DNA of 64,000 nt from an uncultured Bacillota bacterium (GTDB lineage: Bacteria > Bacillota > Clostridia > Oscillospirales > Oscillospiraceae). Shown here piece by piece: positions 6,315-60,166 of this stretch. A model generated the notes under the pieces. It worked only from the letters and a program-made list of their open reading frames with translations, ran no database searches and was not told the origin of the DNA. The position numbers were made by a program, and so were the translations under genes. The DNA lies in contig CANDKT010000001.1 of assembly GCA_947385365.1 (NCBI GenBank), positions 37,798 to 101,797 on the forward strand, read 5' to 3'. Position 1 is the first letter of the stretch; every line of letters starts with the position of its first letter.

Positions 6315-7169
6315 TTAGGCAGATACTTCTCCGTCCAAGTCGCCCCAAGTAACACTGGCGATTACCTTATCGAGGGCTTCCTTATCTTCGGCACTCATAG
6401 CACCAGCGGTTGTTGCGGTAGCAACTGCGAGGCTCAACCCATCGGGGCTAACAGTCAAGCCGTTCGCGTTGGACTCATGCAGTTTCAGGGAGACGGTATT
6501 TTCGGATACACTGACACCGTTCCCGGCTTTCACGGTGTCGACCAATCCCTTGAGCGGGATATAGATGTGACTTTCCTCTGCATTCGCGACGGTCAAGTCG
6601 ACGTAGGGGTCGCCGATCTCCGCGCCAGCGTAAGGAGTCCCGGCAGTTTCGACGATCTCGTAGGAGCCGCCGGAGAGGACGGCATCTTTGGGGATATTGA
6701 TTGCGTCGCCCACATAAGCGGAGGACTCGCCTTCGGTCCGTTTCAGTTTATAGGTAGCGGCGAAACCTTCCTCTGGGGTTTCTTGTTTTTCGATGACAAA
6801 TTCCGCAGAACCAGAAGCAGAACTGGGGGATACGAACAGGCCATCGTCTTTCAGAACGAGGGCATTGTTTTCCTGCTTAGAGATCTGCACGCCGATCGTG
6901 GTCCCATTCTCGCCGGTGTCAAGGATCACGCTTGCGTCGACTGCGGAGAGGCCGATTGCGCCTCCGGCAGACAAGGCGTCAAGTTTCTGTTTATCGGCAG
7001 CAGACATCAAGCCGGAAGCCAAGGCAGTTGCCTCTTTGCCCTTACCGTGCAAGATTTCGCCTTTGAAGATTTCCTGGGTATCGGTCAGCCAGTATATGGT
7101 ATTGCTGTCTTTCACGGAGATTGCGTCATACTGGGCGCGGGTACCCTGTTTAAAGATCACGTTTGCCAT
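6315..7169 (-). CDS. Fibre / head-fibre-like structural protein
   Basis: 284 aa from the ATG at 7169 (MANVIFKQGTRAQYDAI) behind ATAAGGAGGAATCAAGTT. An in-frame ATG 45 bases upstream lacks this site. The N-terminal SNTIYWLTDTQEIFKGE and the later LMSAADKQKLDALSAG are hallmarks of phage fibre proteins. The remainder is beta-rich with repeated SPDGLSL-like and GLFVSP segments. Its N-terminus resembles that of 5241-6245, so the two probably assemble at the same site. Confidence 0.7.
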   Translation of the reverse strand: MANVIFKQGTRAQYDAISVKDSNTIYWLTDTQEIFKGEILHGKGKEATALASGLMSAADKQKLDALSAGGAIGLSAVDASVILDTGENGTTIGVQISKQENNALVLKDDGLFVSPSSASGSAEFVIEKQETPEEGFAATYKLKRTEGESSAYVGDAINIPKDAVLSGGSYEIVETAGTPYAGAEIGDPYVDLTVANAEESHIYIPLKGLVDTVKAGNGVSVSENTVSLKLHESNANGLTVSPDGLSLAVATATTAGAMSAEDKEALDKVIASVTWGDLDGEVSA

Positions 7170-8164: not shown

Positions 8165-8851
8165 TCAGTCGAGGGTAATGTTGTCCAATTCTTCGAGGGT
8201 AATGTTGTCGATATCAGCAAGGGCGGAATAGCCACTTCCGTTTATTGAGTCGACTTCAGCCAAGGTTCTGCGTCGATTGAGCGAAACGTTCACAGATACG
8301 GTTTGTTGGACGGCGGAAGAACCGTTGAAACTGATATCTTTGTATGATAAACTACTGACAAACTGAGTGGTATAGATTTTATTATCGCATTGTTCAAACT
8401 TCAATTCTGCGATTTCTGATATTCTAGCGTGAACGACTGGTCCGCTAGAAGCTCTTTCAAAGCCATGTTTTGTATCGGACAACGACTGAGAGATTCTAAT
8501 TTGGTTTCCAGCGTTACCCAAAAACGAAGTTGGGACAACATTTAGGTTATGGATTTGGATACAGAGGGCGTTTGGGCTGACGCGTTCGATGTATTTTTTC
8601 ACAGAGAAGACTGGGTGCAATGTGATACAGGTTATGTGATGCAACCGTTCAAACGCACGTTTTCTTGTACTGGAAACGTTAGGCTGTATTCCGATACGGC
8701 TACTGACGCTGAGTTTTTTCCGAGCGCATTCATGTGCGGAGACATCCAGAAGCAACCCATTCTGGGCAGAAAAGCCAGCGTAGTATGGGAGCATAGATAC
8801 GATGATTTCTCCTTCTGGCGGTTCCCTCAGAAAAATATCGTATTCTTTCAA
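8165..8851 (-). CDS. Unknown tail-tip protein
   Basis: 228 aa. The start is a TTG directly behind GGAGGTGAAACGAT. No family was recognised. The body is beta-rich and the C-terminus carries a short tandem repeat (DNITLEELDNITLD). Its place between two baseplate genes makes a structural role in the baseplate most likely. The few Cys and lack of membrane segments do not suggest an enzyme or membrane protein. Confidence 0.55.
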   Translation of the reverse strand: MKEYDIFLREPPEGEIIVSMLPYYAGFSAQNGLLLDVSAHECARKKLSVSSRIGIQPNVSSTRKRAFERLHHITCITLHPVFSVKKYIERVSPNALCIQIHNLNVVPTSFLGNAGNQIRISQSLSDTKHGFERASSGPVVHARISEIAELKFEQCDNKIYTTQFVSSLSYKDISFNGSSAVQQTVSVNVSLNRRRTLAEVDSINGSGYSALADIDNITLEELDNITLD

Positions 8852-31795: not shown

Positions 31796-32849
31796 CCATA
31801 AAAATCTGTTGTATTTGACTTTGATTGATTTGATGTGTTATTTTTTCAATATATCCTCTACACTTTTGCCAGAATAATATCTTGAAAACAAAACCTTTGG
31901 GTTGATGTCAATAATTTTGGCCCACTCTGTAATGTTGTGAGTTTCCCCACACAATGTGAGATAAACATTACTTCGTCTGTTGTTTGCTTGTGTCCGCATA
32001 TCGACCCATCTACAATTATCTGGAGAATATGGGCCGTTATTATCTATGCGGTCTATGGACAATTTGCTTGAATATCCAGACGATACGGCCCACTCTCGAA
32101 ATTTCTCGTAGCTATCCCGCCATTCGTCGCACATTATAATACCTCGTCCGCCATACGATTTGTATGGTTTAGAATTTCTATTATAACACCGTGCCTTTAT
32201 GCTACACCATACGCCATACAGTTTTGTATTTGTTTCATGGTGTGTAGACTTGATTTCAGACAATTTGTCATGACGGTAGCACCCGCATGACTGAGACGCG
32301 CCCTTTCTCAGGTTTTCTCCTAATATATCTACAATATTGCCGCAATCACATCTACACGACCACATCACCCTGTGTCTGCCGTTTTTCTGTATGTAATCAC
32401 TACCTCTTCCAAGGACTGCCAATCTTCCAAATTGCTTCCCTGTCAAGTCGTGAATAACACCCATATCCAAACATCCTTTGCATCTTTATTCAAATCAATC
32501 ATTTAGGACGCTACTCCTTGTCGGCTTTCGCCCTCTTACTTTCGTAAGAGCATAGACTATATCTTCATCCACAATGTGGATGCCCACCACAGTCTCCGCC
32601 AATCGCTTGCGAAGCGCTTAGTCGTTGAACCTTCCCCTGTTTGGGGCTTGGCTGCTGATTGCCCATTATTGAGGTACTTAGGATTTGACCATATACCATC
32701 TCACACATTTCTTTCTGCTTTCGCAGCTTTCACGCATGGCTGTATTTCATACCTACGTTGTAGCAGTGTGAGCTTTAGGGGTTTCCAGCAATTCAATGGG
32801 TTGTTTTTCAAGCACATCTCTGTGCAAGCGAGCTATTTACGCGGCATCA
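31796..32849 (-). mobile_element. Group I intron in the major capsid gene
   Basis: About 1054 nt. Core signals on the minus strand are AATTGCTGGAAACCCC (P3/P4 side), GGTTCAACGACTA and AAGATATAGTC, whose GACTA/TAGTC form P7 (32619-32623 with 32555-32559). CTCTTAC-GAAA-GTAAGAG makes a P9-like hairpin. P1 is exon TTACGT with intron GCGTAA, giving a U-G pair at the 5' splice site (32850/32849). P10 pairs TGAT after that site with ATCA of exon 2. The intron ends in G. It carries an endonuclease gene near its 3' end. Confidence 0.85.
31838..32464 (-). CDS. Intron-encoded HNH/AP2-type homing endonuclease
   Basis: 208 aa from the ATG at 32464. The N-terminal DLTGKQFGRLAVLG, the Cys-rich block CRCDCGN...SCGC (Zn site) and LSIDRIDNNGPYSPDNCRWV followed by QANNRRSN are typical of phage HNH/AP2 homing endonucleases. 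It lies wholly inside the group I intron, downstream of the core, as intron-borne endonucleases do. It should cut intron-less capsid genes near the insertion point and so spread the intron. Confidence 0.85.
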   Translation of the reverse strand: MGVIHDLTGKQFGRLAVLGRGSDYIQKNGRHRVMWSCRCDCGNIVDILGENLRKGASQSCGCYRHDKLSEIKSTHHETNTKLYGVWCSIKARCYNRNSKPYKSYGGRGIIMCDEWRDSYEKFREWAVSSGYSSKLSIDRIDNNGPYSPDNCRWVDMRTQANNRRSNVYLTLCGETHNITEWAKIIDINPKVLFSRYYSGKSVEDILKK

Positions 32850-33793
32850 ACGTAATTTAACTCTTGCGTCAGATCTCCATTCATAAGGGGGTCGCCCATG
32901 ATTACGAGGGGATCGCCTTCGTACACAAACTTAATCGGCTTCACATCGCCAGCGATAATGTTCAGCTCATCATCCGGCATCACGAAGTCTTTGGAGTTGA
33001 TTTTATGTCTCTGCGGCATTGTTACGACGGGAGTTCCGTAAAACTTCCCGTAGAAACCGTTATTGTAGAGATCGCTCTTGGAGTCTGTGCCTTGAACAGA
33101 CGGAGCCAGATTCCGTACAGCTTTCTTGGTTCCGATAATGGTTGCGGGCTTTCCGTTTGCCGCAGCCTCAACGTGGGAAATGATATCAATCAGTTCATCT
33201 TCATCGTATGTACCGGCAGCGGGGAAGAATGTAGCTCCGCCCAGATCGTTTGCAGTTGCGTTGGTCCAGATGGAGAAAATATCGTTAAGCATCTGCTGAC
33301 GGAAAGACTCGGACACTTTGGAAATCATAGTGTTGAAATCCACGCGGCCGGACAGCACTCGATTCAGCTCTTCATAGATTTTCACCACATGGAGCCGAGT
33401 AGGAACAGAGAACTCGTTTGTCCCGCTCAAACGCTGACGGCGAATCCCCTGCGTGCCGTCTGCTGCCTCAGCGACGTGGAACAGGTTGCTGTCCTCTGTG
33501 ATAAACAGGTTTTTATCGCCTTCTGCGACATTTCGGAAGTCGACCAACGTATAGAAAAGGTCGCTTTCCTGGAGACCTTCGATTGCGGTACGAGACAGGA
33601 TCTCTTCGACAAGGGCAAATAAACCGTTGCATTTCCCGTCTCTGATGTTTTTATAGTTTAGGGTTGTACTGCCTCCATTCGCGTCCACCAGAGCTTTCCG
33701 CAGAACGTCCTGAGACTGGCCGACCGAATATTTTTTTACATTCCCGTGGTATGCGTCGACTGCTACCTTGACAATTTCTTTCATATCAGGCAT
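32850..33793 (-). CDS. Major capsid protein, exon 1
   Basis: Encodes 314 residues and two bases of the next codon, from the ATG at 33793 (MPDMKEIVKVAVDAY), behind AAGGAGGGATATTCA. If the intron were not removed, translation would stop at 32837 after VDAA. The body has the capsid-like EEILSRTAIEGLQESDLFYTLVDFRN, then PTRLHVVKIYEELNRVLSGRVDFNTMI and KPIKFVYEGDPLVIMGDPLMNGDLTQELNY. With exon 2 the protein has 337 aa, a normal HK97-fold capsid size. It follows the protease and decoration genes. Confidence 0.85.
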
Positions 33794-33806
33794 TGAATAT
33801 CCCTCC

Positions 33807-34310
33807 TTAGTTTTCAGTCTTGCCGACTCGAATGGCGTAATAGGTATAGCGTCCAACCTGTTCGACCTCCACGCAGGTGCCGAGACCAGTGCTGCCGGAC
33901 GCGATCTTGCCACCAGTGCCAATTCCAACGGAGTCGCCCTTCTTGGGGATGGTTTTGCCAACGAACCCCTCCGCAGTCACAGAAAAAATATTTCTGCTTC
34001 GGGGGATGTAGCCGCGAACAGCCTTCCCAGCTTCGTTAATGTACTCGTCCAAATTTTTCTTACGCTCGTCGTACATAACCTCAACGCCCGCAACAATCGC
34101 GCAATCGTTCAATTTGTCTCCAGCCTTTGCCGCGACAGCCTTCATGACCTCTCGCTGGTCATCCTCATAACCTTCCAGTTTCACAATTGTACCATTTTCC
34201 ACTTCCGCCATGTTTCCTTCAGCATTATAGAAACGCAGAGAGACGAGATCGGCAGGCTGTTTCGTGCCGCTCATCAAGTCTGTACGAATGACAGTGTATT
34301 TTTCAGCCAT
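33807..34310 (-). CDS. Capsid decoration / stabilisation-like protein
   Basis: 167 aa, starting MAEKYTVIRTDLMSGTK, behind AAGGAGGAATCTGAT. Beta-rich with VENGTIVKLEGYEDDQREVMKA and a C-terminal barrel-like stretch GKTIPKKGDSVGIGTGGKIA. Its position between protease/scaffold and capsid genes is that of decoration proteins or capsid assembly factors. The name is positional. Confidence 0.55.
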   Translation of the reverse strand: MAEKYTVIRTDLMSGTKQPADLVSLRFYNAEGNMAEVENGTIVKLEGYEDDQREVMKAVAAKAGDKLNDCAIVAGVEVMYDERKKNLDEYINEAGKAVRGYIPRSRNIFSVTAEGFVGKTIPKKGDSVGIGTGGKIASGSTGLGTCVEVEQVGRYTYYAIRVGKTEN

Positions 34311-53833: not shown

Positions 53834-54736
53834 ATGATAGTAGAAATGAACGAAAAAGTGAATATGGGGACTGGAAACATTATACCGCAGTCCCAGGAAT
53901 CCGTCAAGCAAAAAAAACGGTGGCTAATACCAGACAGCAAGCCGATTGCATGGCAAGTCATAAGGCTTACCGCAGCAGAGGGCGGGGACGACGACCGGGA
54001 ACCGGTCGAAACCACAACAATCACCGCAAAAAATGCGGTGGAAGCGTATACGTTGGCCGCCAAGGTATACCCCGGATACAAGCTCGGGGCGGAAATAGTT
54101 ACATATCCCCTTGCTACTCTTGCCCCGGAAGGGGAAGGAATTGACTATTTGGCCAAATATACGGCCAAACAATTCAGAAAATGGCAGATTAGGAACGAAA
54201 ATGCCGTTTTCCAAGGGTTGACGGTACAAGACCGGGAAGATCAGGCACAAACCGCCGCCCTTGCCATATGGCAAGGACTCTTAGCGGATGAGGGTATAGA
54301 TATGTATGCCCTGTATAAGATAGGGTACAACGCAATTTGCGCCGAACGCGATCAGATGTTCCGGAAAAAAGAAAAGTCGTACAATCCGGATAGACTCCCG
54401 CGCGTTTTTGGCACATTTGTTGCAAAAAATGGCCCGTTGGGCGCATTGTTTGCCGAGGCCGCGGCGAATGCCGCAAAAAGCGGTAAATTGACAGAAAAAC
54501 AAATGTCCGTGTTGGATATGTATGCCCGTCACTGGACGGGCGCGGAAATGGCAGCTGAAATGGGCATTAGGCGGGAAAAGGTGTACAAACACCTACACGC
54601 CGGGTTACATAATGTTCTGGATCAAATGATCCAGATTGACCTTGCAAACGGACTTAGGACGTTTGCAAGACACGGAATAACGCCCGAAGAAGTATATGAA
54701 GCCCTTGCGGAAGAAGCAAGGAAACGCAAAAATTAG
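53834..54736 (+). CDS. Sigma-like HTH transcription factor
   Basis: 300 aa from the ATG at 53834; the ATG at 53846 is an alternative, with GAAGGG before both. The middle has VQDREDQAQTAALAIWQGLL (resembles sigma region 2 start), and IDMYALYKIGYNAICAERDQM follows. The C-terminus LTEKQMSVLDMYARHWTGAEMAAEMGIRREKVYKHLHAGL is a region-4-like helix-turn-helix. It may direct host or phage RNA polymerase to phage promoters. It is the first plus-strand gene and ends at a strong terminator. Confidence 0.65.
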   Translation: MIVEMNEKVNMGTGNIIPQSQESVKQKKRWLIPDSKPIAWQVIRLTAAEGGDDDREPVETTTITAKNAVEAYTLAAKVYPGYKLGAEIVTYPLATLAPEGEGIDYLAKYTAKQFRKWQIRNENAVFQGLTVQDREDQAQTAALAIWQGLLADEGIDMYALYKIGYNAICAERDQMFRKKEKSYNPDRLPRVFGTFVAKNGPLGALFAEAAANAAKSGKLTEKQMSVLDMYARHWTGAEMAAEMGIRREKVYKHLHAGLHNVLDQMIQIDLANGLRTFARHGITPEEVYEALAEEARKRKN

Positions 54737-54742
54737 ATTAAA

Positions 54743-54775
54743 AAGACGCTGGAAATATTTCCAGCGTCTTTTTTT
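54743..54775 (+). terminator. Rho-independent terminator after the sigma-like gene
   Basis: AAGACGCTGGAAA pairs with TTTCCAGCGTCTT around a very short loop and is followed by TTTTTG. It begins 7 bp after the stop codon and closes the sigma-like transcript. Confidence 0.9.
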
Positions 54776-54783
54776 GTCCCCGC

Positions 54784-54921
54784 CCCGTCAGAAGGGGACA
54801 AACTCCCCTCTAAGAGTGAAAGGGAAACTCCCGGAAAAAATCCTGCTGGAAGCCCGTCAGAAGGGGACAAACTCCCCTCTAAGAGTGAAAGGGAAACTCC
54901 CGGAAAAAATCCTGCTGGAAG
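54784..54921. repeat. 69-bp direct tandem repeat (two exact copies)
   Basis: Two adjacent copies (54784-54852 and 54853-54921) starting CCCGTCAGAAGGGGACAAAC. They read as identical throughout. Each has internal GGGG...CCCC and GGGAAACTCCC stems. They lie between the terminator and the large structured region, where its promoter should be. Confidence 0.85.
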
Positions 54922-54926
54922 CCATA

Positions 54927-55605
54927 GTTTATCATTGATAGAGCCGCCAAATCCATAATGATTTGGCGGCTCAAATGAGTGATAAACAACGGATATCACT
55001 CGCTTGAGCGGCTTGTAACACCTTGCTATAAAGCTGCGTGCCAAACGGAGACCGACTGTGGAAAATGGTTTGCCCTATCTACTGAGGACCCCTGAGCATG
55101 GCGTTATAGTGGGAGTGGAAAACCGCTTGAGGTTTGTCCTGCTACCACCAAGGGCGTGTTGGTGTGAGTACCTTTGCTATCAAAGGCGACAGTCTGCCAG
55201 GGAGTTAGGCCCTGGGGTTCGGGTCAGTGAAAGCCCAGACAGTGCGGAGACCTCGGCCGCAGGTGGTTGCCATTGCCACCTTAAATGAGCGCTACCGGCG
55301 TGATTACAAGGGACAAATATCGGAAAGTTTGCAAGAACTGAACATCTGAACGGCCATTACATAGCCGGTTATCCTCTTAGGTATCAAGGATATTTGAGAG
55401 ATGGTTTTGTGATAGCTTTGCGTGAAGGCCCAAGGGGTTATAGCGCAGTGCGAAGGGTTTGGGCTTTGAGCGAACCGGACGGTATGATTGAAAAATTTAC
55501 GTGGACGTTCATTTGAGCGTTTGCAAGTCTATACAAAGTGTCGGGGCCGGATTCCCATAGTTGGTTCCGGCACTTCAATATGGGCTTGACCCGTAAATAA
55601 TTTTT
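54927..55605 (+). ncRNA. Candidate giant structured RNA (about 680 nt)
   Basis: No ORF with a start site spans this block, yet helices are dense: GTTTATCA/TGATAAAC (54927-54987) around a 13-bp stem (54941-54953 with 54960-54972), which competes with GAGTGATA/TATCACTC (54977-55001). Further stems are CACCAA/TTGGTG (55146-55164), CCTTTG/CAAAGG (55171-55186), CCAGGG/CCCTGG (55197-55215), GGTGG/CCACC (55262-55280), GCCCAA/TTGGGC (55428-55464) and GCCGGA/TCCGGC (55546-55571). CCCATA/TATGGG (55554-55584) would make a pseudoknot with the last. Size and phage setting recall GOLLD and ROOL RNAs; membership is unproven. Confidence 0.6.
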
Positions 55606-55619
55606 CAGGAGGACAAAAT

Positions 55620-56462
55620 ATGCCTACCATTAAAGAGAAGTTGCTGGGCGACTTTGACGTTGCATTGAAGAACGTCAACTCGCTCCTCGTTTGCGGAACG
55701 GCTTCCAGAGTGGAAGCCGAAGCCGCAATCGGAACGTTGACCTCAATCGAGGCCGACTTAAAAAAATTGGAGGAGCGGGACGTTTATGATCGCTGCGCGG
55801 ACATTCGCGAAGCGATCAAAGTACACCGTTTCCCCGTGATCGCTCACAAGAAAGTGAGCGAAAACGGGCGTCTGGTCAGGGTCGAACGGGGCACTAAAAT
55901 GGTCCAAGTAGATTTGAAGGCTTTCTGCGAATACCGCCGGTTTTCTCTGGACTGGTATTCCGAAATGCAGGCGCTGAATAAGCGCCTGACGTTGAGGGTT
56001 GCAACAACTCTCAACATGACCCCAAGTGAAATCAAAGACGTGGACGACTCATATTATATGAGTCAGTTCGCCGAGAAGATTTCCCTTGGGGAAGACCCCA
56101 CGTCTAACACCCAGTGCGTCAAGCACCTGCAAAGGGTGCTTGACTTGCTCTGCCCGAACATGGGCAAAGCAAATAACCACGACTTGACTTATATCATGTC
56201 GTGCTATTCGCGGCGTAGCAACAAAGCTGCACTGAAAGTAGTCTGTGCAAACCACAGACTACTCTTGTCCCTGTTGGGGGATGTAGCGTTTAACGTATCC
56301 GAAAAAATCGGGTACGGCATTGAACACAAGAGAAAACCGGCGTCCAAGGTGGTTGCCGAAAAAGCAGAAAAGAAAACGACCACTCCGGTTCCGTCCGTGG
56401 TTTTGGAACTTCCCGAGGAGGTTTCCGAGGAGGTTCCCGAGGAGGTTTCCGCCGAGGCGTAA
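55620..56462 (+). CDS. Unknown protein downstream of the structured RNA
   Basis: 280 aa with a strong site (TCAGGAGGACAAAAT) before the ATG. The N-terminus is helical (KEKLLGDFDVALKNVNSLL). A central part contains CEYRRFSLDWYSEMQALNKRLTLRVATTLNMTPSEI, and Cys/His residues are scattered. The C-terminal tail is Lys-rich and then repeats PEEVSEEVPEEVSAEA, so it is disordered and acidic. No family was recognised. Its leader is the structured RNA region, so expression may be tied to it. Confidence 0.7.
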   Translation: MPTIKEKLLGDFDVALKNVNSLLVCGTASRVEAEAAIGTLTSIEADLKKLEERDVYDRCADIREAIKVHRFPVIAHKKVSENGRLVRVERGTKMVQVDLKAFCEYRRFSLDWYSEMQALNKRLTLRVATTLNMTPSEIKDVDDSYYMSQFAEKISLGEDPTSNTQCVKHLQRVLDLLCPNMGKANNHDLTYIMSCYSRRSNKAALKVVCANHRLLLSLLGDVAFNVSEKIGYGIEHKRKPASKVVAEKAEKKTTTPVPSVVLELPEEVSEEVPEEVSAEA

Positions 56463-56468
56463 CATATA

Positions 56469-56490
56469 AGGGCTTGGTTTCCCAAGCCCT
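56469..56490 (+). terminator. Hairpin after the 280-aa gene
   Basis: AGGGCTTGG pairs with CCAAGCCCT around TTTC, 6 bp past the stop codon. No T run follows, so it may be an RNA-stabilising 3' hairpin instead of a strong terminator. Confidence 0.5.
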
Positions 56491-56594
56491 GCTTAATGCG
56501 GCTTCGGGTTTTTCAATGGGGTTTTCAAACCTGGAACGGTCCAAAGCCCGTAAAACGCAGATGGAGTATACATGTTAAAAAAGGAGAAGCAACA

Positions 56595-56780
56595 ATGAGT
56601 ATTGCTAACATTAAGGCAAATTACAGGAGACTTCACACCAGCCGGGCGAGGCGGTATGTGTCCCGCAAACTCGAGGGCATTGCGGTGCCCTACAATGGAA
56701 AGTTTGGAAATGGGTACAAGGTTTTCACCCCGGCGTGGGACAGCTCAAAATATTGCTACGTAACTTATTACGTAGCATGA
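56595..56780 (+). CDS. Small basic protein
   Basis: 61 aa from the ATG at 56595, behind AAAAGGAGAAGCAACA. Basic N-terminal half (IKANYRRLHTSRARRYVSRK), then GKFGNGYKVFTPAWDSSKYCYVTYYVA. No family was recognised. It may bind nucleic acid. Confidence 0.65.
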   Translation: MSIANIKANYRRLHTSRARRYVSRKLEGIAVPYNGKFGNGYKVFTPAWDSSKYCYVTYYVA

Positions 56781-56896
56781 AGAAATCAGTCGTGGCGGCG
56801 ACGTTAAATAGCCTTTAGGCCGCCAGCGTCCCGGCCTATGGCCGGGGGTAGGGGTTCATTTTCCCCGTATTTTCAAATAAACAGGGGGGGGTAGAA

Positions 56897-56998
56897 ATGG
56901 CAAAAAAGAAGTCAAGGAAGTACGAAGCGCGGATGAGACAGCGCAAAGAGGCCAACGCGTATCTGTTGCATGAAAATTGTAGCGGATATTACGACTGA
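56897..56998 (+). CDS. Very small basic protein
   Basis: 33 aa (starts MAKKKSRKYEARMRQRKEAN) behind a G-rich site (GGGGGGGG six bases before the ATG). Eleven Lys or Arg in the first 18 residues suggest nucleic-acid binding. It is followed at once by a structured RNA region. Too short for the usual gene finders; support is the start site and codon pattern. Confidence 0.5.
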   Translation: MAKKKSRKYEARMRQRKEANAYLLHENCSGYYD

Positions 56999-57005
56999 CC
57001 CGCAA

Positions 57006-57072
57006 GGCCCACGCCGGAAGGCGTGATCGGTGCAAGCCCGATGCCGTCCAATTGACGGCGGCGCTCATGGGC
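57006..57072 (+). ncRNA. Four-way-junction-like structured RNA
   Basis: An outer stem GGCCCA / TGGGC (57006-57011 with 57068-57072) encloses three hairpins: CACGCC-GGAA-GGCGTG (57010-57025), ATCGG / CCGAT (57026-57042) and GCCGTC-CAATT-GACGGC (57043-57059). The layout resembles a cloverleaf but lacks tRNA consensus bases. The stretch 56781-57208 has only the 33-aa ORF and these structures. Confidence 0.5.
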
Positions 57073-57095
57073 TAGTTTTGCAATGTCGGCCCAGT

Positions 57096-57179
57096 AGAAA
57101 TCACCACTTCGTTGCGGAGACTCTGGAAACCCGGAGTCAAACTGATAAGTCCGCAATTTTCACGGAATCGGTGATTTCT
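57096..57179 (+). ncRNA. Nested-stem structured RNA upstream of the BRO gene
   Basis: Three nested perfect stems: AGAAATCACC / GGTGATTTCT (57096-57105 with 57170-57179), TTGCGGA / TCCGCAA (57112-57118 with 57150-57156) and GACTC / GAGTC (57119-57123 with 57134-57138). It ends 30 bases before the BRO start codon, so it could be a leader regulator or a separate small RNA. Confidence 0.6.
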
Positions 57180-57208
57180 GCAAACATTCTTTACATGAAA
57201 GGAGCTTT

Positions 57209-59041: not shown

Positions 59042-59326
59042 ATGAAGGAAGTATGTAGCACAACAATTGATGCTTGCATCTGGGATATTGAGAGCAAATT
59101 GGCCTCAGTGTATGGGTGCATGGAGGCGGAGCGCATGATACAGCCGCTGGTCTGGTATATTAACACAGGTCGTGCGTCTACCGACTTTTTGCGGCTGCTG
59201 ATTAACGCTAAACCGCAAACCAAAGCGGCAATCTATCGTAGACTTGCCAAATTAGAGAGTTTCGACGGAACGATAACAGCTATTTGCAACGTACTACACT
59301 TGGATGCAAAATCCGTAATCGCTTAG
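59042..59326 (+). CDS. Small unknown protein
   Basis: 94 aa from the ATG at 59042 (MKEVCSTTIDACIWDIESKL), behind GAAGGTG; a GTG at 58988 overlapping the previous stop is an alternative start. Helical throughout (MEAERMIQPLVWYINTGRASTDFLRLLINAKPQTKAAIYRRLAKL). No family was recognised. Confidence 0.55.
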   Translation: MKEVCSTTIDACIWDIESKLASVYGCMEAERMIQPLVWYINTGRASTDFLRLLINAKPQTKAAIYRRLAKLESFDGTITAICNVLHLDAKSVIA

Positions 59327-59371
59327 TATCGCCGTGGGGCTTTTGTGCCCTAATCTTTCTCTTGCATATAA

Positions 59372-59434
59372 CATCTTTACTTTTGGGGTCTCCATTTGGA
59401 TACTTTACCTGTGGAGACCCCAAAAGTAAAGATG
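59372..59434. repeat. Perfect 23-bp inverted repeat before the toxin-antitoxin promoter
   Basis: The arm 59372-59394 (CATCTTTACTTTTGGGG...) is the exact reverse complement of 59412-59434, with a 17-base loop. It ends 6 bp before the -35 box of the toxin promoter. There is no T run, so it may be a barrier hairpin or the trace of a small inverted-repeat element. Confidence 0.85.
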
Positions 59435-59440
59435 TTTTCG

Positions 59441-59469
59441 TTGACGCATACGATATTTTTGTATATACT
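59441..59469 (+). promoter_or_regulatory. Promoter of the toxin-antitoxin pair
   Basis: TTGACG (59441-59446) and TATACT (59464-59469), 17-bp spacer. The expected start of transcription is close to the ribosome binding site at 59474-59483, giving a very short leader. Confidence 0.75.
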
Positions 59470-59490
59470 AACAAGAGAGGAGGCAGAGGC

Positions 59491-59817
59491 GTGACCAGAA
59501 AATTTGTGTATTGGGGCGCATTCCTTGCGGCTTGCAAGGTTATGGGCTTGGGAGACAGTACGCTACAAGCACTGGAAAATATGCTTCTCCTTAACCCGAC
59601 TGCTGGTGATATGGTAGAAGGGACAGGTGGCGCGTGCAAGGTCCGTGTCAAGTTGTCCGGACGCGGCAAGAGCGCAGGTGGACGGGCGATTTACTATGAC
59701 ACTGGCACAGCGATTCACTTCCTTATGATTTACCCAAAAAGTGCGCAATCGGATTTGACGCCAACACAAAAGGAACTCTTACATAAGGCGACACGGAAGA
59801 TTCGGAAGGAGTGTTGA
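59491..59817 (+). CDS. RelE/HigB-type toxin
   Basis: 108 aa from the GTG at 59491, seven bases after AGAGAGGAGG; the longer upstream frame would run through the 23-bp repeat and promoter. VKLSGRGKSAGGRAIYYD and IHFLMIYPKSAQSDLTPTQKELLHKATRKI match the beta-sheet and C-terminal helix of HigB2/RelE-like mRNA interferases. It precedes its antitoxin, as in higBA loci. It would cut mRNA at the ribosome when the antitoxin is lost. Confidence 0.8.
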   Translation: MTRKFVYWGAFLAACKVMGLGDSTLQALENMLLLNPTAGDMVEGTGGACKVRVKLSGRGKSAGGRAIYYDTGTAIHFLMIYPKSAQSDLTPTQKELLHKATRKIRKEC

Positions 59818-59818
59818 T

Positions 59819-60166
59819 ATGGACGAATTGGTTTTAGAGACACCATTGTCCCCGGAGGAAATTGCGGAGAATTTTAAGGATTTCGATTTGACGTCCGCTC
59901 TTCAGAACACATTGGAAGAGATTGACGCATGGAAGCGCGGGGAGGAAGTCCCAATAGTCGTTCGCGAGCGGACGTTACCGGACGTGGATGCTGCTGAGAT
60001 ACGGAAATCCCTTTCTCTCACACCTAAAGACTTTGCCGGAATACTTGGCGTATCCACACAAACGGTAGAAGAATGGGAAAGCGGGCGGAGTAATCCAACG
60101 CCCACGGAACGGAAACTGATGTATCTGATTCAGGAAGATCATACTTTAGTTCAAAAATTGAGATAA
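59819..60166 (+). CDS. HigA-type antitoxin with Xre HTH
   Basis: 115 aa. It begins 1 bp after the toxin stop. The N-terminal part is acidic. The C-terminal Xre-type helix-turn-helix (about 60-100) reads IRKSLSLTPKDFAGILGVSTQTVEEWESGRSNPTPTERKLM. It should neutralise the toxin and repress the promoter at 59441. A strong terminator follows. Confidence 0.85.
   Translation: MDELVLETPLSPEEIAENFKDFDLTSALQNTLEEIDAWKRGEEVPIVVRERTLPDVDAAEIRKSLSLTPKDFAGILGVSTQTVEEWESGRSNPTPTERKLMYLIQEDHTLVQKLR

Follow-up and report, generated by a model that had tools for sequence, protein, structure and literature searches.

Evidence for a large structured phage RNA with a divergent RAGATH-16 domain upstream of a gene of unknown family

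Introduction

Between a gene for a sigma-like protein and a gene for a 280-aa protein in a phage-like contig lies a block of almost 680 nt that a preliminary description proposed to be a giant structured phage RNA, possibly a member of the known families of the GOLLD/ROOL type or possibly a new class. Does this block encode an RNA at all, to which RNAs is it related, and what might it do? All positions refer to the window, the whole 64,000-nt stretch of contig C1 (101,797 bases). GOLLD, ROOL, OLE, and HEARO all have models in Rfam, as do the RAGATH motifs considered below, which were reportedly introduced by papers of 2015 and 2017.

Results

A noncoding, strongly folding block in phage DNA

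53780–54736, forward strand: upstream gene, 318 aa, with a C-terminal sigma-70 region 4-like HTH (phrog_1740, E 2.3e-4; phrog_3512, sigma factor, E 7.3e-4)
54740–54779, forward strand: terminator of the upstream gene, a perfect inverted repeat with 17-nt arms (54740–54773) plus a T run
54784–54921, no strand assigned: a 69-bp unit repeated twice in tandem, both copies identical
54927–55605, forward strand: noncoding RNA block, between the sigma-like gene and the 280-aa gene
55607–55612, forward strand: ribosome binding site AGGAGG, before the ATG at 55620
55620–56462, forward strand: downstream gene, 280 aa, of unknown family, with relatives in 18 viral records

Judging from its genes, the contig carrying the block is a phage: the families matched among ten window proteins scanned are portal, terminase-like, tail, tape measure, exonuclease, integrase, and anti-repressor. 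Within this phage DNA, the block is confirmed as noncoding and strongly folding, with an MFE of −254.5 versus −214.7 ± 9.0 for 20 shuffles (z −4.4). The largest closed ORF within 55171–55619 has 46 aa, and those of the wider block reach 103 aa (reverse strand, 54733–55044) and 76 aa (forward strand, 55058–55288). A conserved protein frame had been named as one finding that would speak against an RNA; when the 17 stop-to-stop frames of at least 30 aa in 54780–55619 were compared with the relatives by tblastn, none was conserved. The top hit (L042, E 0.001) spans the RAGATH-16 motif described below and its 5′ flank and contains two stops in the aligned L042 sequence, and two further hits (E 0.002 to 0.003) lie over the two-stem hairpins and are gone at a stricter limit, the check for stops covering the best hit. 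The proposed lack of a supported ORF is thus borne out, as are the terminator upstream, with its inverted repeat and T run, and the strong ribosome binding site that follows the block.

The surroundings recur in the viral relatives introduced below. At the position of the upstream gene, all 8 relatives examined (of 17) have an ORF of 325 to 462 aa, and 6 of these 8 proteins match the sigma factor family phrog_3512 (7 of 9 with the window's own, E ≤ 0.01); that of L047 matches an HTH family and that of L048 has no match, both being 38 to 45% identical to the protein of L042. The window's upstream protein is 16% identical to that of L042, and BLASTP gives no alignment of the two. Tandem arrays (TRF; unit 36 to 85 bp) precede the RNA at the matching position in 11 of 17 relatives. 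By eye, the arrays of L042, L045, L054, and L056, though different, have a common core like CCTTTGCGGTTAGGG. Among eight contigs examined, three (G764, G759, and G760) have identical sequence at both contig ends, at the tandem repeats, as expected of circular genomes opened at the array; the other five have no clear end-to-end identity there.

Relatives of the RNA and of the downstream protein

Searches of IMG/VR with RNA patterns returned 11 contigs, 10 of which carry the RNA; L038 was rejected as a relative, its match being a chance occurrence of the pattern inside a coding gene. The downstream gene is present in all 10 RNA-bearing contigs (L013, L025, and eight more). A protein-first search of IMG/VR yielded 18 records with the downstream gene and, since the 622 nt upstream of the gene in L059 are identical to those of L046 and L059 was therefore dropped, 17 distinct RNA regions. 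Because L042 to L046 are closely related, the number of sequences showing a feature does not equal the number of events behind it. In every instance observed, the RNA and the gene are direct neighbors on the same strand. Measured from RAGATH-16 to where the protein match starts, 17 loci span 340 to 486 nt (449 nt in the window, where the RNA extends to about 680 nt with its 5′ extension).

Several other searches were negative: the block had no blastn match in the phage collection, the L013/L026 protein had none by tblastn against phages and plasmids, and an initial search with the window's downstream protein alone gave no match either. In drawn, partly overlapping samples of other whole genomes, the DNA of the block was found in none of 98, and the downstream protein in none of 294 and none of 397.

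By its downstream protein, the window belongs to the family, its version being 28% identical to that of L042 and the tblastn E-values descending to 7e-21. The window protein has no Pfam or PHROG match at E ≤ 0.01; among 12 family members, single weak Pfam or PHROG matches occur, one of them to a single-strand DNA binding PHROG (E 0.0043). The AF2 model of the L042 protein (pLDDT 87.9) had no counterpart among solved folds at E ≤ 0.001 and is similar to A0A8S5PRS4, a siphovirus protein without a name (E 2.9e-6).

A RAGATH-16 domain maintained by compensatory changes

55171–55242, forward strand: RAGATH-16 motif, divergent (RF03047; 57.0 bits, E 1.1e-9; gathering score 65.6)

The stretch 54700–57200 was searched against Rfam 15 at E ≤ 10. 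GOLLD, ROOL, OLE, and HEARO, the models that the preliminary description had proposed to run, gave no match at this limit and were rejected as candidates; the suggestion that the RNA might be a member of the known families of GOLLD/ROOL type is not supported. By score, the window copy of RAGATH-16 lies below the gathering score (57.0 versus 65.6 bits); by structure, it has the consensus helices together with compensatory changes. RAGATH-16 is present in single copy in 13 of the 17 related viral records (above the gathering score in 12) and, with the window genome included, once each in 14 of 18; the copies below the cut-off are those of the window and of L049 (22.3 bits). The model has no match in L047, L051, L054, and L058 among the 17 records scanned; shortened or altered variants are visible by eye in L047, L054, and L058, and none was seen in L051.

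Covariation of this domain was assessed in alignment A6, which has the window as its first row plus 13 relatives and covers two of the three helices. Across these 14 loci, 95.7% of cells are paired, 8 of 10 pairs have changed on both sides, and the score is 0.696 versus at most 0.158 when the pairing partners are slid. The third helix, the 5′ hairpin, is kept with compensatory changes by hand-picked arms only.

Outside the viral records, RAGATH-16 was found in none of 63 other genomes of the genus and none of 397 other genomes of the phylum (partly overlapping samples, searched with filters that lose weak matches). An exact search with the motif CTTTGCTATCAAAGGCG gave nine chance matches, none with RAGATH-16 at the gathering score; a combined RAGATH-16 pattern search gave no matches; and a pattern scan of genome contigs gave 11 loci, with RAGATH-16 at E ≤ 0.01 in none of the 7 scanned (L015, L018, L019, and L022 were left out). 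Apart from the founding papers of 2015 and 2017, which it did not include, a literature search found no paper naming “RAGATH-16” or “RAGATH-4.”

The RNA core of the relatives joins RAGATH-16 and RAGATH-4

The five close loci, aligned over the span that starts at RAGATH-16 and closes with the 3′ hairpin (alignment A11), have a core of 425 to 450 nt that folds as one structure of 124 pairs in 20 helices. RAGATH-16 is one part of it; the others are a middle domain carrying a pair of CNAG-tetraloop hairpins, a 3′ domain, and the two-stem hairpin at the 3′ end. Of the 124 pairs, 44 have changed on both sides, and 94.0% of cells are paired versus at most 42.1% when slid; this paired-cell share is favored because the structure was predicted from the same five sequences, and the two-sided changes are more telling.

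In L042, L044, and L046, the 3′ domain is matched by the RAGATH-4 model. In L026, L027, L028, and L029, RAGATH-4 (RF03153) scores 54.3 to 64.5 bits (E 8.2e-9 to 1.4e-11), its matches beginning 174 to 178 nt after RAGATH-16 (L028 and L029 being one shared RNA region). In the window, this model has no match at E ≤ 10. Together, these results support the conclusion that RAGATH-16 and RAGATH-4, catalogued separately, are sub-domains of one larger RNA in the relatives.

The CNAG hairpins of the middle domain number 29 in 16 loci (shuffles: mean 0.6, maximum 3), with at least two in 13 of the 16 and none in L052. A model of the middle domain built from 7 loci, R3, finds 7 of 10 other viral loci inside the core at E 1e-8 to 0.015, E-values that are rough, as for all short-calibrated models used here (R1, R2, and R3). 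Its match in L051 is partial and not significant (E 0.18), behind the gene and beside two further hairpins; that in L052 is not significant (E 0.66); and L055 has none. In L052, the RNA's hairpin by eye encloses an apparent middle domain. The loop sequence GUUAUGAGA recurs, again by eye, in different core hairpins of L047, L049, L053, and L056.

By this part of the RNA, the window does not group with the family: R3 finds no middle domain at E ≤ 1 (the unfiltered best scores 8.8 bits, E 0.12 in 951 bases), and no hairpin passes the family's CNAG rule. Two hairpins of the window have an AAG loop:

55374–55400, forward strand: 12-bp hairpin with an AAG loop, failing the family CNAG rule
55427–55439, forward strand: hairpin GGCCC-AAG-GGGUU, failing the family CNAG rule

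At a guess, these two may be the counterparts of the family's two CNAG hairpins.

Covarying pairs among homologues, which had been proposed as a check on a structured phage RNA, were found in the RAGATH-16 domain, the 3′ hairpin, and the five-locus core, and they support that proposal; we consider it almost certain that the block encodes a real, conserved large RNA. The proposal of a new class holds in so far as the relatives have a larger RNA with RAGATH-16 and RAGATH-4 as sub-domains, but the middle of the window's RNA is not recognizable as that of the family.

Two-stem hairpins and their competitors

54927–54987, forward strand: two-stem hairpin, 5′ copy, GUUUAUC type (R1, 61.2 bits, rough E 2.1e-14)
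54977–55001, forward strand: competing hairpin GAGUGAUA/UAUCACUC, using the 3′ strand of the 5′ two-stem hairpin
55523–55590, forward strand: two-stem hairpin, 3′ copy, GAUAAACC/UUAUGGGC type (R2, 25.7 bits, rough E 1.6e-4)
55579–55595, forward strand: competing hairpin UAUGGG/CCCGUA, close to the ribosome binding site and resembling a terminator in a consensus scan

Because models R1 and R2, both built without the window, match at its opposite ends, the block has two-stem hairpins of different types at both ends, and the R2 match places the family's two-stem 3′ hairpin before the gene in the window as well. Both types covary, with changes on both sides in 9 of 18 pairs (9 loci) for the type of the 5′ copy and in 8 of 21 pairs (5 loci) for that of the 3′ copy. 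The hairpin can be duplicated, since L051 (191–287, 1138–1201, and 1415–1489) and L052 (462–597 and 1392–1446) have further copies, some of them behind the gene.

In 16 elements, the 3′ strand of the two-stem hairpin is able to pair with nearby downstream sequence instead of its own partner. The summed energy of the competing duplexes is −123.6 versus −83.7 ± 7.0 with the downstream sequence shuffled, and 0 of 300 shuffles are as low; taken singly, the competing hairpin reaches p ≤ 0.05 in 8 of the 16 elements and not in the other 8, and the 16 are not independent, given the relatedness of L042 to L046. The main hairpin is more stable than its competitor in all 16.

Both sets of competing stems described earlier bear on this arrangement. 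The set at the 5′ end is real, with GUUUAUCA (54927–54934)/UGAUAAAC (54980–54987) set against GAGUGAUA (54977–54984)/UAUCACUC (54994–55001), and is kept in several relatives. At the 3′ end, the UAUGGG strand (55579–55584) was rightly identified, but its competing partner is CCCGUA (55590–55595) and not the CCCATA of the apical loop; the relatives support an outer stem UCUAUA/UAUGGG and an inner one that contains GUCGG/CCGGC.

Ribozymes and other neighbors

56490–56568, forward strand: twister-P1 ribozyme candidate (47.4 bits, below the gathering score of 67.2; E 8.2e-9), 27 nt behind the gene
56788–56853, forward strand: pistol ribozyme (62.3 bits, above gathering)
56995–57077, forward strand: twister-sister ribozyme (67.4 bits, above gathering)

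Three different small ribozyme motifs thus lie within 600 nt behind the downstream gene of the window (56490–57077), and L047 has three twister-P1 matches behind its related gene. In L026, the sequence behind the gene holds RAGATH-36 at 6962–7104 (119.5 bits) and, weakly matched, RAGATH-27 at 8711–8795. The gene is followed by tRNAs in L026, L027, L028, L029, L053, and L055, and there is no tRNA in the window; the phage records L028 (8796–9205) and L029 (4418–4827) also contain a tmRNA gene (114.9 bits). Elsewhere in the window are a Group I intron on the reverse strand (32533–32869, 90.7 bits), whose 5′ end overlaps a same-strand ORF of 374 aa (32837–33961), and a RelE-type protein followed by an HTH protein (59284–60166), likely a toxin-antitoxin pair.

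Discussion

What the RNA does can be stated only tentatively. Our preferred reading, to which we give somewhat less than an even chance, is that the large RNA is a scaffold, its most likely binding partner being the product of the downstream gene. The RNA would be transcribed together with that gene and would have its 3′ border at the two-stem hairpin, the 3′ strand of which could swap to the short hairpin near the ribosome binding site; the twister, pistol, and twister-sister ribozymes would trim the same transcript further down. In the fuller form of this proposal, held with the same reserve, RAGATH-16 and RAGATH-4 may be, instead of two small RNAs in their own right, domains of one molecule in a new class of large phage ribonucleoprotein RNA, which would have a core of 425 to 450 nt, a protein devoted to it, a 3′ hairpin able to swap, and a ribozyme-trimmed transcript. 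Against a scaffold stand the unmatched fold of the L042 protein and the window itself, the middle of which is unrecognized and which is without RAGATH-4 and without a CNAG hairpin.

Nearly as likely is that the RNA is a cis-acting 5′ leader, a long untranslated region that controls the downstream gene, perhaps through protein feedback, with the bistable 3′ hairpin as its switch; we would still place this somewhat short of an even chance. A leader explains equally well that RNA and gene are always seen side by side on one strand: the RNA lies directly 5′ of the gene, and in 15 measured loci, among them the window, 29 to 99 nt lie between the hairpin and the beginning of the protein match. The switch has the summed excess of the competing hairpin over shuffles (0 of 300) and the 8 of 16 individually better elements in its favor, as well as the terminator-like character of the window's competing hairpin; however, an A-rich stretch without a T run follows the short hairpin in L042 to L046 and in L056, and a terminator is therefore not general. 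Pairing of the ribosome binding site with the RNA favors a leader through its modest excess when 17 loci are summed (−253.8 versus −235.6, with 2 of 300 shuffles as low), yet singly it is better in only 5 of the 17 (p ≤ 0.06), with p 0.22 in the window, and several covarying domains over 340 to 486 nt are much for a leader. L051 can be read both ways. It keeps the gene and the two-stem hairpin before it without a RAGATH-16 match, which suits a leader and which also favors a scaffold that is separable from the gene; since the partial R3 match (E 0.18) lies behind the gene, the RNA of L051 may have moved rather than been lost.

Two further readings are considerably less probable. The region could be a replication element, in which the tandem repeats act as iterons and the RNA, or its DNA strand, offers the downstream protein a primer or an origin structure, as would fit the repeats upstream in 11 of 17 relatives, the 3 of 8 contigs with the same sequence at both ends, as in circular genomes cut at the repeats, and the match of one protein member to a single-strand DNA binding PHROG. 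We consider this unlikely: that match is weak (E 0.0043) and confined to 1 of 12 members, no solved protein has a similar fold at E ≤ 0.001, and changes to G-U pairs point to selection on RNA. Least probable, and by a good distance improbable, is a core that cuts itself like other RAGATH motifs. Three RAGATH members have been shown to be ribozymes, according to PMC11061315, and in the window a span of 2 kb holds RAGATH-16 together with three ribozyme motifs; the same source, however, gives RAGATH-18 as the guide RNA of IS607 TnpB, and a multi-domain fold of at least 425 nt is unlike the small nucleolytic ribozymes.

Whichever function applies, the two orphan Rfam motifs now share one molecule and one constant protein neighbor, which recurs in 18 viral records, and the function of the motifs thereby becomes testable with one RNA and one protein. 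If the scaffold RNA is true, phages own a further solution of the GOLLD/ROOL type; if the leader is true, its size is out of the ordinary and a conserved switch precedes the gene.

Compared with the catalogued motifs, the RNA shares with RAGATH-16 (RF03047) the helices and the GUGAAA element, and its relatives score up to 94.8 bits, but Rfam models 72 nt alone, which here make up a single domain within a larger core. In L026 to L029, the RAGATH-4 match covers the 3′ domain and ends in the GUUUAUCA strand of the 3′ hairpin, whereas all four matches lie below the gathering score of 104.4 and Rfam has RAGATH-4 as a separate family.

Among large RNAs, GOLLD and ROOL are described in PMC12286853 as ornate phage RNAs often near tRNA genes, with a ROOL example of 659 nt and GOLLD often above 800 nt. 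The RNA described here resembles them as a large ornate phage RNA, six relatives of which also have downstream tRNAs; unlike them, it matches neither model, has no tRNA in the window, and is followed by one protein gene. OLE RNA is about 600 nt long and ornate and works with proteins (PMC12054373 and PMC11332333). The present RNA comes from phage records and lacks a match to the OLE model, yet it is similar to OLE in size and ornateness, and OLE is likewise an RNA that works with proteins, as our preferred scaffold reading would have it for the RNA described here.
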